This document shows, piece after piece, positions 34,174 to 45,001 of a DNA stretch of 64,000 nucleotides. The stretch is taken from NCBI GenBank assembly GCA_016284635.1, contig JAEEPF010000002.1:1-64000 (forward strand), read 5' to 3'. Origin of the DNA: Prevotella sp. GTDB lineage: Bacteria; Bacteroidota; Bacteroidia; Bacteroidales; Bacteroidaceae. Every line of letters begins with the position of its first letter. Position 1 is the stretch's first letter. Made by a program: the position numbers and the translations under genes. The notes under the pieces were generated by a model that did no database searches, was not told the origin of the DNA, and worked only from the letters and a program-made list of their open reading frames with translations.

Positions 34174-34590
34174 TCATTTGTAATAACCTACTCTGACATA
34201 GTGGCGGGGCGGCGCGAGGGGATTCCAGGAGATGTGAAGCCAGCCATTGCCTGTGAGCAGCTGGTCGGTGTGTTCGCAGATCTTCAGGAATTCGATGAGA
34301 TTCCAGAACTGCGAGGGATCTTGAGGCCGGATGTCGGCAGCCTGGCCGAGAAGGTGTTGGGAAGTACGGACACCCCCTACCTTCTGGTTGACTTCGGGAT
34401 TGCGAAAGCCAGAGTTGATGATGATCGGTCCGGCTACGACGCGTGCCGGTTCGAGCAGCAAATGACAGCCGTAGGTCAGATTTACTACATCTTGCATCGA
34501 CGGGATGTTCTCAGGATACTTCCTGAGGTTAAGAAACTCACTCAGCTTAAAATGCTTGGAGAGCCTTATATTGTTTATCTCGGTAATCAT
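34174..34590 (-). CDS. M15-type peptidase-like protein
   Basis: ARVVAGPIIINSGFRNPEVNQKVGGVRTSQHLLGQAADIRP and WLHISWN. Confidence 0.88.
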   Translation of the reverse strand: MITEINNIRLSKHFKLSEFLNLRKYPENIPSMQDVVNLTYGCHLLLEPARVVAGPIIINSGFRNPEVNQKVGGVRTSQHLLGQAADIRPQDPSQFWNLIEFLKICEHTDQLLTGNGWLHISWNPLAPPRHYVRVGYYK

Positions 34591-38469: not shown

Positions 38470-39639
38470 ATGATACCCAAATTACCCAGAGAACTGCTCT
38501 GGACAGATAAAACTTCGATGGATGAGTTTTTTGAACTTGATCCAGTTAATGAATACTTTTATGAGTATTACATTTCTTTGCGAGAAGAACCATTTGCAGT
38601 CACATTAGACCCTGTAAAAGTGTTTAACGAGGTTTATTACCAAGCTACACGTGCAGCTTATGAGAAACCATATATGTTCGGCATTGCTCCATATTTTCAA
38701 GATATTAAAGCCAACTTGGGCTGGAACTATAGTGCAGAGCTTGTGATGTCAATGTTATACTGGATTTTTGAGGCATCTGATTCAATAAACCTGAAGAAAA
38801 GAAATTATTTCAAAGATTTCATAAAACTTCAATGCTCAGGGTGTATCTATTGGCAAACTTTTCAGAAATGCTATCAGTTGTTAAAGAGAAAGAAAATATG
38901 TTTGAAATACCGTTTTGCTCCTAAACCCGTTTCAACTCATTATCTTCGGAATAAGTATATTTACTGGTCTGACATTACGCGCAATTATGATCTTGTTACA
39001 ACCAGATGCACAATTGAGCTTTGGGATAATGAAGAAGATAGAAGCGAGGTGGCTGCCATGATAAAAGGCAGTTTGGGAAAAGGCGCTGTCATAAAGAGAT
39101 ATGGCGCTGATGATGCAACTGTGATAAATTTATTGGATGGTTATATCAAGAATAATTCTAGCTTTGTGTATACTAACCCCAGTCAATACATAGATAATCG
39201 GTATCTAGAAGTGCGAATCAAACAATTAGAGATGGTGAACCACGCAAAGCAAAGCCGTATCGACGAATTGGAGGCTGACAACAACCGACTGAATGCATTA
39301 CTCGAGAAAAAGAAGATAAACGGAAAAGCAAGGAAGTTTACTTTGGTTCAGATGGTGGACTATTGTAAGGATTGTGTGGAATGGGATGACGTAAAGTCTA
39401 TAGTCGCTATGCTGAACAAGTTATTAAGACGAATAGGAACTGATGAAGATAGCGACCTTGTAGATAGTATCGAAGAAGAATTTAAATATAGGAAATACGG
39501 CGATTACATTATGGGCGACAAGAATGAGTTCAGCGGTAATTCGTCTCATAATACAATAAAACTTCCTCCAGGAATGACTCCTCAAGAGGCAATGAAATTG
39601 TTACAAAACAAATCTAAAGACAATGGCGAAGAAAGATAA
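38470..39639 (+). CDS. Hypothetical protein, operon gene 2
   Basis: 389 aa; coiled coil about residues 245-280; C-terminal GDKNEFSGNSSHNTI. Confidence 0.65.
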   Translation: MIPKLPRELLWTDKTSMDEFFELDPVNEYFYEYYISLREEPFAVTLDPVKVFNEVYYQATRAAYEKPYMFGIAPYFQDIKANLGWNYSAELVMSMLYWIFEASDSINLKKRNYFKDFIKLQCSGCIYWQTFQKCYQLLKRKKICLKYRFAPKPVSTHYLRNKYIYWSDITRNYDLVTTRCTIELWDNEEDRSEVAAMIKGSLGKGAVIKRYGADDATVINLLDGYIKNNSSFVYTNPSQYIDNRYLEVRIKQLEMVNHAKQSRIDELEADNNRLNALLEKKKINGKARKFTLVQMVDYCKDCVEWDDVKSIVAMLNKLLRRIGTDEDSDLVDSIEEEFKYRKYGDYIMGDKNEFSGNSSHNTIKLPPGMTPQEAMKLLQNKSKDNGEER

Positions 39640-40183
39640 CGTAAGAGGTGATCACAACACATTTCAAGCTGGAAGCATGCTTGTGAAGTTCGTACAGAAT
39701 AATTATAACAAGGTGCCTGGAGGCTGGGCTCCGGCTGATGATGATGACTATACCGAATATGAGGAGGTTAATGCAAGGAAGACTGCTGAGGAGTTTGTCA
39801 ATGATAAGCCGAACTATTTCCAGGCAGGCAGGTTCCTGAAAGGGGTGCTTAATGCTGAATGGTTTGAAGAAGTGAGAACGCATGAAAGATATACCAAGAA
39901 ATGGAGAGAGGAATTCGTGGATAAGCTATTAGATTCAGATTGTGGATGGGATATTGCCAATGCTTGGGAGAGTGAAGAAAAGCGAGAGCCCCTAAAGGCT
40001 TATGTGGTAGGTTGTCTGAAAGATGCGGGTGTCATCAGCGGTGCATACGACAAAATCGCTAAAGTAATGGGCTATGACAATAATACTTATCGGTCATTCT
40101 CACGGAACTTATGCAGAGGGAAGAAACAGGCTTATTTTGAATGGATAAAAGAATATGTTGAGAAAAGCAAGATAGAGCAGTAA
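39623..40183 (+). CDS. Hypothetical protein, operon gene 3
   Basis: 186 aa; start overlaps gene 2 by 17 nt; N-terminal RGDHNTFQAGS. Confidence 0.65.
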   Translation: MAKKDNVRGDHNTFQAGSMLVKFVQNNYNKVPGGWAPADDDDYTEYEEVNARKTAEEFVNDKPNYFQAGRFLKGVLNAEWFEEVRTHERYTKKWREEFVDKLLDSDCGWDIANAWESEEKREPLKAYVVGCLKDAGVISGAYDKIAKVMGYDNNTYRSFSRNLCRGKKQAYFEWIKEYVEKSKIEQ

Positions 40184-40192
40184 TATCTCTCA

Positions 40193-40344
40193 CTTGCGAC
40201 AAAGAAGGCTTGCGACAATGCTTATGAGTGTTGTCGCAAGTTTTTTTATTGAAAAAAATTTCTCCTTTGTTAATCGGTATTCCAATATGGTTTTTGTTTG
40301 CGACAAAAGTTCAACTTGAAAAATTTATTTTTTCGTCGCAAATG
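40193..40344. repeat. Five TTGCGACAA-type motifs in both orientations
   Basis: CTTGCGACAAA 40193, CTTGCGACAAT 40209, inverted TTGTCGCAAG 40231, TTTGCGACAAAA 40297, inverted TTCGTCGCAAA 40332. Confidence 0.8.
40209..40247 (+). terminator. Intrinsic terminator of the three-gene operon
   Basis: CTTGCGACAA - 12-nt loop - TTGTCGCAAG then seven T. Confidence 0.85.
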
Positions 40345-40351
40345 CGCAACG

Positions 40352-40359
40352 TAACTTTG
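40352..40359 (+). promoter_or_regulatory. -7 promoter element of the leader RNA
   Basis: TAACTTTG; -33 element not obvious. Confidence 0.5.
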
Positions 40360-40378
40360 CATCGTCGAAAGACAAAAA

Positions 40379-40552
40379 TTAGTTCTTTGACATATTGCAC
40401 AAGGTTTTGAAGTTTAAATTCTTCCTACGCGGCAACGACTCAGTTGTGAGCCGCGATGGAAAATCTCTCGCCAGTCTCGTGTGAGGCAGATGCCCCACAT
40501 GGGACTTGGAACTATCTAATGCGCAGGAGCAATCCTTGCGCGAACATTAATT
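40379..40552 (+). ncRNA. Candidate structured leader RNA with boxA-like element and three hairpins
   Basis: TTAGTTCTTTGACA at 40379-40392; hairpins 40428-40455, 40471-40509 and 40518-40548. Confidence 0.6.
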
Positions 40553-40574
40553 AAAAAATTAAATCTCAAAGGTT

Positions 40575-40892
40575 ATGACTAAGAAAAGTCAAAAGAAGAT
40601 GGCTACTAAGAGTAGAGAAGTAAGAGACAGAGAGTATTGCGCTGGAATGGCTAAGACTGGCGAGGTGCTTGGTGATGAACTGATCGACATGCTGTCACAG
40701 CACGGAGAATCATTTGAGGGTCTTGCGATCGAGACGTATGCCATGAGCAAAGCATGGGCTGCACTACTGGCCATCGCTCATAGTGAGGGCTTCGATGCAG
40801 AAGATCTGTTCAAGCAACTTCTTCCGTCTTTCATGAAGGACATGGATGGTTTCATCAACGAAATGGAGGAGGAAGAGAAAGAAGTAAACTAA
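40575..40892 (+). CDS. Hypothetical protein, primase-module gene 1
   Basis: 105 aa; acidic C-terminus. Confidence 0.65.
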   Translation: MTKKSQKKMATKSREVRDREYCAGMAKTGEVLGDELIDMLSQHGESFEGLAIETYAMSKAWAALLAIAHSEGFDAEDLFKQLLPSFMKDMDGFINEMEEEEKEVN

Positions 40893-40976
40893 CGTAAAAA
40901 CTCCGAGTGCTGTGGGATGGTTTTCCATGGAACAAAGCGCTTTACATCTCCACACATCTCACAAAACTTGGAAACA

Positions 40977-41486
40977 ATGAAAAAGAAGAATTTCAACCGC
41001 GCAGGGTCTGAACAAGAGTACGGCCCGCGCCTCGCAGGAGAGATCCTGCACGACTATCTTGAGAACAGTAACGAACCTCTGGCTGTTGCTTATCGTGAGC
41101 AATCGGGCGATGCGGATGAGCAGGGCTGGCACCGTAACACGGATTTGTCCGTGGATCTGAAAACCCTTCTGCGCAGCGACCGCAGCATGAAGACCGGCAA
41201 GGACTATCAGGGCATTCTGCGACGCGACTCGGATATGGAGTTGGACGATTATCGCTGCCACGATCCTCACTACACGTTCACGGAGACCGTTCCACCGGCT
41301 CCCCGTAAGCGCAATCCGCACGTGTTCAAGGGCAAATACATCACGGTGACCCGCAGGGACGACGGAAGCGTGCATCCTAACTTCAAGCCTCTGAAGATTG
41401 ACGAGGATTTCAGTCTCGAGAAGTATATCTCCGGCGTAGCCAACGAACTGCTCTGGGCACTTGAAGGCCTGATAGAAAATGGATAA
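40977..41486 (+). CDS. Hypothetical protein, primase-module gene 2
   Basis: MKKKNFNRAGSEQEYGPRLAGEILHDYLE; internal start preferred. Confidence 0.65.
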   Translation: MKKKNFNRAGSEQEYGPRLAGEILHDYLENSNEPLAVAYREQSGDADEQGWHRNTDLSVDLKTLLRSDRSMKTGKDYQGILRRDSDMELDDYRCHDPHYTFTETVPPAPRKRNPHVFKGKYITVTRRDDGSVHPNFKPLKIDEDFSLEKYISGVANELLWALEGLIENG

Positions 41487-41510
41487 TGGATAATTGAAAA
41501 CGGCTGAGTC

Positions 41511-41656
41511 CGTTACGTTACAGTTGTTACAGTTGAAAAAAAGAGATATATACCTCTTTTAATAATTATATAACTAATTAATAATCAGATAGTTACATTA
41601 TATTTAAAGAGGAGCATACCCCTTAGAAAAGCAACTGTAACAACTGTAACGTAACG
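41511..41656. repeat. Perfect 25-bp inverted repeat around AT-rich 96-nt core
   Basis: CGTTACGTTACAGTTGTTACAGTTG (41511-41535) and its exact reverse complement (41632-41656). Confidence 0.95.
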
Positions 41657-41697
41657 CTCGGTCAGCATAACAAATTAATTTAAATAGTTGAGAATCA

Positions 41698-43014
41698 ATG
41701 AAATACGACATTACAAAGCCAGTGCGTCCGAAGATGCCAAAGCTCGGAAAAGGCCTTGAAGCCATTAGTCTTTTGCAATCGCAGGCCAGCAAACCCATGC
41801 ATGAACCCCTTGCTCCGATGCTTTTTCCCTCACTTGGAGCTCATGTTAGTGGTTGTGAATTTATGTACCCATCGGGGGTTTGGATGGAACCATGCGGCCT
41901 TATAGCCCATATATGTGCTGAATTTTCGGGTAACAAGGGTCAGTTGGGGCTGTTGGCAGAGGCTATCTGCAGGGACTTCAGGGCTCACGATGAAGAATCA
42001 GACAATAAACTTAAGGATTGGGATAAGGCCTATAAGTGGGGGAATAAACAGGACTGTCCGCCCCGTCCCGATGTGGCTTTCTATTACCCTCCCGCAGATT
42101 GCACGCCTGCTGGATTCAATAAGAATGTAGAGGTGCTGGCCAAACAGGGCGACAAGTGTATGTACATGAACCTCCCCGAGGTGGTTATGGCCAACGACAT
42201 TTGTGGGGGACACAAGAAAGTCTCAAAAATGCTGAGGTGCTGCTTCGACCGTGAATTGTACGGTCAGATGCGAGCCACGGAATCCGGTGTGACGTGTAAT
42301 GCGAGGCTGCGCGCCTGCTTCACTTTTGCCAGCACCCCTGTTGACGCCCGCGAGTTCTATAAATCAGAACTCTTCAACGGCACACTTGCTAGAATTACGT
42401 TCTCCTACGTGCCGCAGCATGCCCGCGACGGCCGTATACCTCGGGTGGGCCAGTTCTCAGACGAGTTCTACGGTCAGCTCGACAAGTACCTGTTGCGTCT
42501 CACCTCTGCCAAGGGCCGATTCGTCATCAAGCCCCTCAACAAGCTCATCGACAAGATGGCTGAGGACATGGCCGAGCTGGCTGACTGCATGGACGAGTCC
42601 TGGCTCTATGCCTGCAGCAAGAGGAGCCTCGTGTCAGCATGGAGGGCTGGTTGTATACTCTATCTGCTTAACAACCAGACTTTCACCCGCTCGATGGCGG
42701 AATTCGTAGAGTGGCTTGTTTACCAGGATCTCTGGAGCAAGCGAATGATATTCTCGGACATGGTAAACGGCAAGGATATTGACCTTAATGCCGAGACACA
42801 GAAGCATGGTCCTGTGAACATGCTCGCGAGTCTGGAGAATCCCTTCAGCAAGGCGCAACTGAAAGCACTCCGCGTGCAGATGGGCAAGAGCGAGGAGGGT
42901 GCTGACGGCCAATTGCGGCAATGGGTGTTCCGCAAGCTGGTGACCTACTCCGCTGAGACAGAGCTCTACTACATGACAGAGGAATGTCTCAAGAAGTTTA
43001 AAGACAGTAAGTGA
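41698..43014 (+). CDS. DUF3987-like (VapE/helicase-associated) protein lacking clear Walker A
   Basis: 438 aa; gene context with CHC2 primase and DUF3987-like pattern; no GxxxxGK[ST]. Confidence 0.6.
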   Translation: MKYDITKPVRPKMPKLGKGLEAISLLQSQASKPMHEPLAPMLFPSLGAHVSGCEFMYPSGVWMEPCGLIAHICAEFSGNKGQLGLLAEAICRDFRAHDEESDNKLKDWDKAYKWGNKQDCPPRPDVAFYYPPADCTPAGFNKNVEVLAKQGDKCMYMNLPEVVMANDICGGHKKVSKMLRCCFDRELYGQMRATESGVTCNARLRACFTFASTPVDAREFYKSELFNGTLARITFSYVPQHARDGRIPRVGQFSDEFYGQLDKYLLRLTSAKGRFVIKPLNKLIDKMAEDMAELADCMDESWLYACSKRSLVSAWRAGCILYLLNNQTFTRSMAEFVEWLVYQDLWSKRMIFSDMVNGKDIDLNAETQKHGPVNMLASLENPFSKAQLKALRVQMGKSEEGADGQLRQWVFRKLVTYSAETELYYMTEECLKKFKDSK

Positions 43015-43021
43015 AAAGACC

Positions 43022-43918
43022 ATGGATAAATATGATATCGAAAAGCTGCGCTCACTCCCCTGCGAGGGAGTGGCGCAGCGCTTAGGACTCACGGTAAAGC
43101 ACCACAAGGCTTTGTGCCCATTCCATAACGACCACACGCCATCGTTGACCTTCAAGAAGAATAAGTATAAATGCTGGAGCTGTGGGGAAAGAGGCGACTC
43201 TATCAGTTTGGTGGAAAAAGTGCTTGGTAAGGATTTCCTTGATGCGTGCCGTTGGCTGGCGGATGAGCACAATGTGATTATTTCAAGTTTTGGGGAGCAA
43301 GATGATCCATGCGGTCAACAGAAGCCTTTCGACGCCAGCCGCTATGAAAGGTTTTTCGAACGGCCGTGGCTTTCGCCTGAAGCAAGAAAGTTTCTTTTTG
43401 AGGAGCGCAGGATCGACCCGAGGGTAGTGCGTTGGTGTAGGCTGACGTCATGGAAAGACCGTGATGGTGTGCCTTGGCTGGAAATACCTTACTTCAATCG
43501 CGAGGGTAAGCTCATAGGCATCCAGAACAGGAACCTGATAAAAGGTGCCACACCTCGCTTCAGGTTCCCGCAAGGAGGTGGCAGCATCAGCCTTTATAAT
43601 CAGCCTGTATTGAACATGCTCCACCCAAACGATACGCTGTATATCTGTGAGGGAGCGTCAGACACTTGGTCGATGCTTTCTGCAGGATACAAGGCGATTG
43701 CCATCCCGTCTGCCACCTTGCTTACAAAGAAGGACGTGGAGCTGCTTCAGACTCTCGGTTCAGAGCTCTCTGTTCGGTTCGAGATGTGGCCAGACAACGA
43801 CGCGCCTGGCGAACGGCTGTTCCTGCAGCTGCAGAAGGTTCTGCCCAGTCTGGTGCATCATCAGCTGCCGCCGGGCTGCAAGGATTTCAGCGAGTATTAT
43901 CTGACAAAAATAACCTAA
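43022..43918 (+). CDS. CHC2 zinc-finger / TOPRIM DnaG-like primase
   Basis: LCPFHNDHTPSLTFKKNKYKCWSCGERGD; TOPRIM YICEGASDTWSML and PDNDAPGERL. Confidence 0.93.
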   Translation: MDKYDIEKLRSLPCEGVAQRLGLTVKHHKALCPFHNDHTPSLTFKKNKYKCWSCGERGDSISLVEKVLGKDFLDACRWLADEHNVIISSFGEQDDPCGQQKPFDASRYERFFERPWLSPEARKFLFEERRIDPRVVRWCRLTSWKDRDGVPWLEIPYFNREGKLIGIQNRNLIKGATPRFRFPQGGGSISLYNQPVLNMLHPNDTLYICEGASDTWSMLSAGYKAIAIPSATLLTKKDVELLQTLGSELSVRFEMWPDNDAPGERLFLQLQKVLPSLVHHQLPPGCKDFSEYYLTKIT

Positions 43919-43928
43919 GGTTATCGTC

Positions 43929-43972
43929 AAATAACCTTGCCTTATTCAGCAATAACGCAAGGTTATTTTTTT
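43929..43972 (+). terminator. Intrinsic terminator after primase
   Basis: AAATAACCTTGC ... GCAAGGTTATTTTTTT. Confidence 0.88.
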
Positions 43973-44002: not shown

Positions 44003-44034
44003 TTTGGTGGTTTCGGATATTTTTTGTAACTTTG
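44003..44034 (+). promoter_or_regulatory. Promoter of HU-like gene
   Basis: TTTGGTGGTTTCGGATATTTTTTGTAACTTTG. Confidence 0.8.
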
Positions 44035-44071
44035 TAGCAGAATTAAGGGTGATGACAATGGCGTTTGTTCA

Positions 44072-44120
44072 GACCCCTGTAGTCCCCTAACTTAGGGGAC
44101 ATAAAAAGCGGGATGGGGTC
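44072..44120 (+). promoter_or_regulatory. Structured 5' UTR of HU-like gene
   Basis: Inner GTCCCCTAA/TTAGGGGAC nested in outer GACCCC/GGGGTC. Confidence 0.55.
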
Positions 44121-44173
44121 ACCCGATGTAGTTGACTCCTTAATATTCTAATACCACAAAAAACTTTACAGGT

Positions 44174-45001
44174 ATGATAGAATTGTATTTGAGTAAGGTG
44201 ACCGAGACTTCGGAAACCGAACAGGCGGGCAAGTACTACGCCCGCGTGAGTTACAAACAGACGATGAGCGTGCAGGACATGGCGCATCACATGGCAGAAC
44301 ACAACACGATGTTCTCGGAGGGCTCGATCACGGGTATCCTGATCGACTTCGTGAAGTGCGTGCGCGAGCAGGTGCTCATGGGCAACACCGTGAAGATTGA
44401 CAACCTGGCCATCTTCAAGGCTACGGTCGAGGCCAACGCCCTGGAGACGCTCTATGACGCCGAGCAGGACAAGGTGGCCTCCGCTTCCATCGGTACGCTG
44501 CCCGAGGGCGCCAAGACCGGCGCTGCCGTGAAGGCCATCAAGCTGCTGGCCCAGTCGACCGGCGAGTTCAGCCGCGACGAGCTGAAGAAGGACGTCAGGC
44601 TCTCTTGGACCGACAAGGCCAAGGCTGAGATCGCGGCAGCAAAGTCAGGAGTCAGTAGTCAGGAGTCAGGAGACAGTAGTCAGCAGTCGGGAGGCGGCAA
44701 CGGCGGTTCTCAGAACGGCGGCTCGCAGTCTGCAACCCTGGCTGCACCCACCATCAGCGGTACGACTCCGTTTGCTGAGACTACCTCTGTGAGCATGAGC
44801 GGCCCTGCCGGTGCGGAGATCCACTACACCACCGACGGCTCGACGCCAACGGCTGAGAGCACGCTCTACAGTGAGGCATTCACGCTGAGCGACACCACGA
44901 CCGTGAAGGCCATCGCCATTAAGGACGGTGAGTCGAGTGAGGTTGCAAGCAAGCTGTTCACCAAGTCCAGCGGCGACGGCGACGACATGGACCAAAACTA
45001 G
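44174..45001 (+). CDS. HU-family DNA-binding protein fused to chitobiase/hexosaminidase C-terminal domain
   Basis: N-terminal HU-like region; C-terminal PTISGTTPFAETTSVSMSGPAGAEIHYTTDGSTPTAESTLYSEAFTLSDTTTVKAIAIKDG. Confidence 0.85.
   Translation: MIELYLSKVTETSETEQAGKYYARVSYKQTMSVQDMAHHMAEHNTMFSEGSITGILIDFVKCVREQVLMGNTVKIDNLAIFKATVEANALETLYDAEQDKVASASIGTLPEGAKTGAAVKAIKLLAQSTGEFSRDELKKDVRLSWTDKAKAEIAAAKSGVSSQESGDSSQQSGGGNGGSQNGGSQSATLAAPTISGTTPFAETTSVSMSGPAGAEIHYTTDGSTPTAESTLYSEAFTLSDTTTVKAIAIKDGESSEVASKLFTKSSGDGDDMDQN

Follow-up and report, generated by a model that had tools for sequence, protein, structure and literature searches.

A structured leader RNA with a boxA, a candidate antitermination signal, before a mobile-element replication operon in Prevotella

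The locus and its operon

The window, a 64,000-nt stretch of a Prevotella contig, belongs to a genome of 3.67 Mb in 304 contigs, which is 83% complete. Positions 40360–40574 of the window would encode the 5′ leader RNA of a replication operon that belongs to an integrated Bacteroidales element. The surrounding genes look like such an element, and those upstream, at 38470–40183, fall in no family. The features are as follows.

40193–40342: five copies of a repeat close to TTGCGACAA (three direct, two inverted), surrounding the terminator of the gene upstream and 5′ of the promoter
40352–40359, + strand: promoter-like −7 element of Bacteroidota type, TAACTTTG, by sequence
40364–40373, + strand: small stem GUC-GAAA-GAC, directly 5′ of the boxA
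40382–40397, + strand: boxA, GTTCTTTGACATATTG, by match to the genus rRNA spacer boxA
40428–40455, + strand: hairpin 1, by folding
40460–40555, + strand: candidate conserved RNA core (UCUCUCGYCA, stem 2, hairpin 3 and tail), by covariance model and compensatory changes
40471–40509, + strand: stem 2 (hairpin 2), 13 outer and 3 inner pairs, one bulged T
40521–40541, + strand: hairpin 3, with a GCAA loop
to about 40555, + strand: AU-rich conserved tail GAACAUUAAUUA, the end of the core
40575–43918, + strand: genes of the operon
40575–40892, + strand: first gene 3′ of the leader, 105 aa, no family
40977–41486, + strand: p169, a 169-aa protein
41511–41656: AT-rich core between inverted repeat arms of 25 bp, origin-like, in the untranslated gap 5′ of the replication gene
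41698–43014, + strand: p438, a 438-aa replication protein
43022–43918, + strand: CHC2/Toprim DNA primase
43931–43972, + strand: intrinsic terminator ATAACCTTGC...GCAAGGTTATTTTTTT, by sequence
44174–45001: HU-HIG gene

The terminator is likely the end of the operon, and the genes after HU-HIG are read as the host rnf operon, a label of our own. P438 is related to DUF3987-type proteins of about 800 residues and itself matches no Pfam family; no relative of it was found in IMG/VR. P169 is kept 5′ of the replication protein in about 30 loci. The gap between the two genes, 41487–41697, is 211 nt long, untranslated and rich in hairpins. A gap of about 200 nt lies 5′ of the replication gene in every one of about 30 related loci (L047–L079); in it, short direct repeats stand on one side of an AT-rich core (TATAACTAATTAATA-like) and recur in inverted form on the other; the repeat sequence varies by element, the layout is constant and both sides change together. 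The gap, in the window and in the related loci, is a strong candidate for a replication origin.

A second type of structured leader lies directly 5′ of start codons and is closed by a stem beside the ATG (window 40893–40976; L084 near −3503; L047; L104); its closing stems are ACTCCGAG...CTTGGAAACAATG in the window, AACTCCGAG...GCTTGGAAGAATG in L084 and AACCGCGAAG...CACTTCGAGGTTATG in L104. At 44027–44173 the HU-HIG gene is preceded by a TAACTTTG promoter of its own and a structured leader (GGGTGATG...GGGGTCACCC). The CHC2 primase matches the PADLOC model RTasDnaG-like, a reverse-transcriptase-associated primase (E 6e-57), and the neighboring genes tested gave no match to a reverse transcriptase. 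Lysis enzymes and replication genes occur together in the window, which has an M15 endolysin-type peptidase at 34174–34590, and in the islands L011 (enzyme at 2139–2630) and L113 (enzyme at 2310–2795). These lysis enzymes are of phage type, M15 peptidase or GH24 lysozyme.

Parts and fold of the leader

The RNA of 40361–40574 folds at −70.9 kcal/mol, compared with a shuffle mean of −48.0 (sd 4.35; z −5.27), and none of 200 shuffles folds as stably. The first-pass annotation of this DNA had described a promoter element followed by three hairpins, the last with a GNRA loop, and no ORF before a gene starting at 40575. The promoter element is present at 40352–40359, the hairpins are all found within 40428–40541 and the GNRA loop is the GCAA of hairpin 3. 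Translation of both strands gives no credible ORF before the ATG at 40575; the sole ORF listed nearby, a 60-codon GTG ORF at 40228–40410, overlaps the 5′ part only. The extent given at that time, 40379–40560, captured a real element that is slightly larger, starting with the stem at 40364–40373 and with its tail ending at about 40555. The observed structured leader with its boxA is thus confirmed as genuine.

By sequence, TAACTTTG lies 23 nt 5′ of the boxA, and the stem at 40364–40373 holds the position that boxB occupies in rRNA leaders. A conditional intrinsic terminator is ruled out, since a T run follows none of the leader hairpins. The leader matches no family of Rfam 15 at the gathering cut-off, and permissive thresholds likewise yield nothing, the sub-threshold matches looking like chance.

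Identity of the boxA

The first-pass annotation had guessed a boxA from resemblance to the rRNA signal, a guess borne out by the 16S–23S spacers within the genus, by tRNA arrays and by the 16S leaders of Bacteroides. The sequence GATCTTTGACATATTG, identical to the window boxA in 15 of 16 positions, occupies the 16S–23S spacer of each of the five rRNA operons examined, which come from three genomes of the genus. When 40 same-genus genomes were searched with one mismatch allowed, three carried 4–5 copies each. The five copies fetched lie 155–205 nt 5′ of the 23S start motif, and in the spacers read the copy directly follows a tRNA gene. This is where a spacer boxA is expected.

Scanning 85,462 species genomes with the pattern CTTTGC-N15-40-GTTCTTTGACATATTG returned 37 stretches, almost all in Bacteroidota. 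The promoter and boxA precede five 16S genes of Bacteroides faecalis, with the 16S motif 193 nt on, and also 23S genes of Pedobacter, tRNA arrays and two protein genes, one HU-like and one Rha-like. Viral contigs hold the combination in 35 cases versus 9 for the reversed motif; several of the viral matches stand 5′ of untranslated leaders or of tRNA arrays in phages, and roughly a third, which look like coding coincidences, were set aside. Since rRNA spacers, 16S and 23S leaders, tRNA arrays and viral contigs all carry such letters, GTTCTTTGACATATTG-type sequences are the boxA of the phylum, often used 5′ of untranslated or structured RNA, and the reading of 40382–40397 as a boxA is well supported. 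A dinucleotide Markov estimate puts the chance occurrence of the 16-mer at about 0.0018 for the 3.67-Mb genome, in which the only exact match is at this site. A near-match on contig C113 (L002) runs, by our reading, antisense inside a SecE-like gene and not in a leader.

About half of 49 promoter–boxA spacers fold at −3 kcal/mol or below, with a mean z of −0.9, which is a weak average signal. The stem beside the boxA has 3 bp in the window.

In one Bacteroidales genome, RGIG1517, a cassette of promoter, hairpin and boxA (TTGTATCTTTGCCGTCGAAATC...CGTTCTTTGACATATTG) is repeated before many different genes (L185, L186, L188, L190, L192, L200, L204 and L209). The genus has two more families of boxA leaders, L122 with L115 and L114 with L216, each with conserved sequence 3′ of the boxA; the former precedes an AAA-type ATPase gene.

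Conserved RNA core and related leaders

A second leader with the identical order of parts lies on another contig of the same genome, C290. From these two leaders, each trimmed of one unpaired base to align, a covariance model was built, and a search of 300 genomes of the genus with it found a further copy in another species (G523, E 4e-10). The G523 locus has the promoter, a GUCGAAAGAC stem identical to that of the window, a boxA GCTCTTTGACAT and the AU-rich tail, among which the model held the tail only. TTTGCA is kept at the equivalent promoter site in C290 and G523. A hairpin is predicted at the place of hairpin 1 in both, and its sequence is not alignable among the three.

Across the three sequences 10 of 24 pairs change on both sides, and 91.7% of the pair cells are standard pairs. 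This level of compensatory change is reached by none of 500 shuffles, and slid structures give 0–3 such pairs; the statistics come from three sequences in an alignment fitted to the model. RNAalifold recovers the same stems from the same alignment. In G523 most letters of hairpin 3 are replaced and its pairing is kept. G-U pairs occur in the conserved stems, as RNA would have. The evidence that 40460–40555 is a conserved structured RNA is good, not final, given the few sequences and an alignment that followed the model. On two of the points by which the first-pass annotation proposed to check its view, homologous loci and Rfam, these results favor it: layout and stem pairing are retained in the former, and the latter offers no match at all.

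The one addition from a second model was a short version in G529, with a 9-bp stem, boxA, hairpin and GCGAACATTAATTA. The full core is present in 2 of 369 genomes of the genus, those of the window and G523, plus the short version in G529. The C290 boxA is degenerate (GATGTTTGACATGTTG) and that of G523 departs from the window boxA in its 3′ half; boxA-like letters occupy the same place in G523 and G529. Weak model matches at L225, L227 and L228 were taken as noise, and a fourth, L226, is a true relative in shortened form, as its boxA, hairpin and tail show. When the leader DNA was searched in 201 genomes of the family, C290 was the sole true homologue, matches in G135, G155 and G167 falling in or beside unrelated genes. 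The letters of hairpin 3 were found in the same genome only, among 295 genomes of the order and viral contigs.

Each of the four leaders (window, C290, G523 and G529) has 5–6 copies of a short repeat 5′ of the promoter, with a different repeat sequence in each; in the latter three it is a 7-mer within the 256 nt before the leader. The TTGCGACAA set of the window is a possible operator array.

In C290 and G523 the leader is followed by unrelated small genes and then by a replication protein of about 800 residues, which carries DUF3987 in G523. The first genes 3′ of the leaders are mutually unrelated, that of the window included, and DUF3987-type replication genes come later. The layout is kept in three loci with differing first genes, which indicates that the leader itself, not one gene, is under selection. 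Among primase-module loci the promoter and boxA occur in 3 of 53, not above permuted motifs, and in most of the remaining family the structured leader is of another type and lacks a boxA. Thus the module does not generally need a boxA, and the present claim concerns the window leader and its relatives, not the module family.

Proposed function and alternatives

The leader layout, the identity of the boxA and the conserved stems are what the sequences show. From them we infer a leader of the rrn or nut kind that would load NusB and S10 and let RNA polymerase escape Rho in the leader and in the origin-like gap; we assign this reading a probability of about 0.6. Transcription would begin just past TAACTTTG, pass the small stem and reach the boxA after about 20 nt. 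NusB and ribosomal protein S10 (NusE) would bind the boxA and, together with NusA and NusG, would make the polymerase processive and Rho-resistant. The polymerase would then be carried across the structured leader, untranslated over about 200 nt, and next across the gap 41487–41697, to the primase genes, with stems 2 and 3 stabilizing the Nus complex or binding a protein of the element or host. Read-through would have a purpose here because both the leader and the 211-nt hairpin-rich gap are untranslated. The mobile element probably borrows the anti-termination machinery of its host to transcribe its replication genes. Rho is encoded in the same genome. NusB is present in 28 of 28 near-complete relatives and was not found in the present assembly, an absence explained by the incompleteness of that assembly. 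Counting against the antitermination reading are this missing NusB, the rarity of the conserved core, the low count of promoter and boxA among primase-module loci, the degenerate boxA of C290 and the differing 3′ half of the boxA in G523.

Another explanation, which we consider unlikely, is that the leader acts mainly after transcription: stems 2 and 3 and the AU-rich tail would bind a protein, element-encoded or ribosomal, that sets translation or stability of the mRNA, the boxA being secondary or repressive through the Nus complex. The conserved core adjoins the start codon and ends in the conserved GAACAUUAAUUA tail, Nus factors do repress suhB through a leader boxA (PMC5725501), and leaders of related modules have other stems and lack a boxA. 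However, the unrelated first genes fit an effect on the whole operon better than one on a single start codon, and a canonical boxA right behind the promoter points to control of elongation.

Two further explanations are both very improbable. The hairpins might work as DNA, in a replication or partition site beside the TTGCGACAA repeats, for instance as a single-strand initiation site; these repeats do lie directly 5′, and the operon, a replication module, contains an origin-like gap. Yet promoter, boxA and stems follow one another along a single strand, the conserved pairs include several G-U/G-T, tolerated in RNA but poorly formed in DNA, and 41511–41656 is the better origin candidate. Or the leader could be a long 5′ untranslated region of the ordinary kind, its stems serving only to protect the mRNA and its boxA match being fortuitous, as the rarity of the core and the lack of boxA enrichment over the module family would allow. 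Against such a view stand the fold score (z −5.3), the compensatory changes, the chance expectation of 0.0018 exact boxA matches per genome, and the G523 and G529 leaders, which have boxA-like letters in the equivalent position.

Novelty and significance

In the open-access literature searched, the 15-letter boxA core is not printed and a boxA in an mRNA leader of Bacteroidota is not reported; subscription journals may differ. On sequence grounds the leader is classed as a new variant of boxA antitermination leaders. A broader proposal, held tentatively and at somewhat under even odds, is that mobile elements and phages of Bacteroidota carry a widespread class of boxA leader RNAs capturing the rRNA antitermination complex for replication operons and tRNA arrays; the window leader would then be one structural family, whose element-specific stems would make a new antitermination RNA. 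With GTTCTTTGACATATTG there is a concrete Bacteroidota boxA, found alike in rRNA operons, in phage tRNA arrays and in leaders of mobile elements. It opens Nus-factor control outside rRNA to direct tests in this phylum, for which that literature reports none. The locus also supplies a structured RNA absent from Rfam and suited to a reporter test.

Comparison with known systems

UpxY, a NusG paralogue encoded in the operon it serves, governs read-through of Bacteroides capsule leaders (PMC7819879). The present leader is likewise a long 5′ leader of a Bacteroidales operon, with read-through control as proposed here; unlike in UpxY systems, no UpxY/NusG-like Pfam domain was detected in the neighboring genes tested. 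BoxA is also known from non-rRNA leaders of gammaproteobacteria, those of suhB and a ParE-like toxin gene, where it usually lies less than 50 nt from the start codon and, at E. coli suhB, represses (PMC5725501). The window boxA is similarly in an mRNA leader, but about 180 nt 5′ of the start codon and with conserved stems between.

As with lambda nutL and nutR, a mobile element would employ boxA for early or replication genes; in contrast to lambda, an N-like protein is not identified here, the stem precedes the boxA and large stems follow it. The put RNA of phage HK022 and EAR of the Bacillus eps operon are structured antitermination RNAs. The multi-stem leader could, like them, act on the polymerase in cis; it differs in having a boxA, and it gave no sequence or family match.

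Closest to the boxA itself are the rRNA antitermination signals (boxB-boxA; NusA/B/E/G, SuhB, S4), since the window boxA is practically that of the genus rRNA spacer. As in those signals, it is promoter-proximal and stands ahead of long untranslated RNA; a possible small stem on its 5′ side (with the same letters in G523) may be a further likeness. Unlike them, the leader would serve protein-coding replication genes of a mobile element, and it bears the additional conserved stems 2 and 3.
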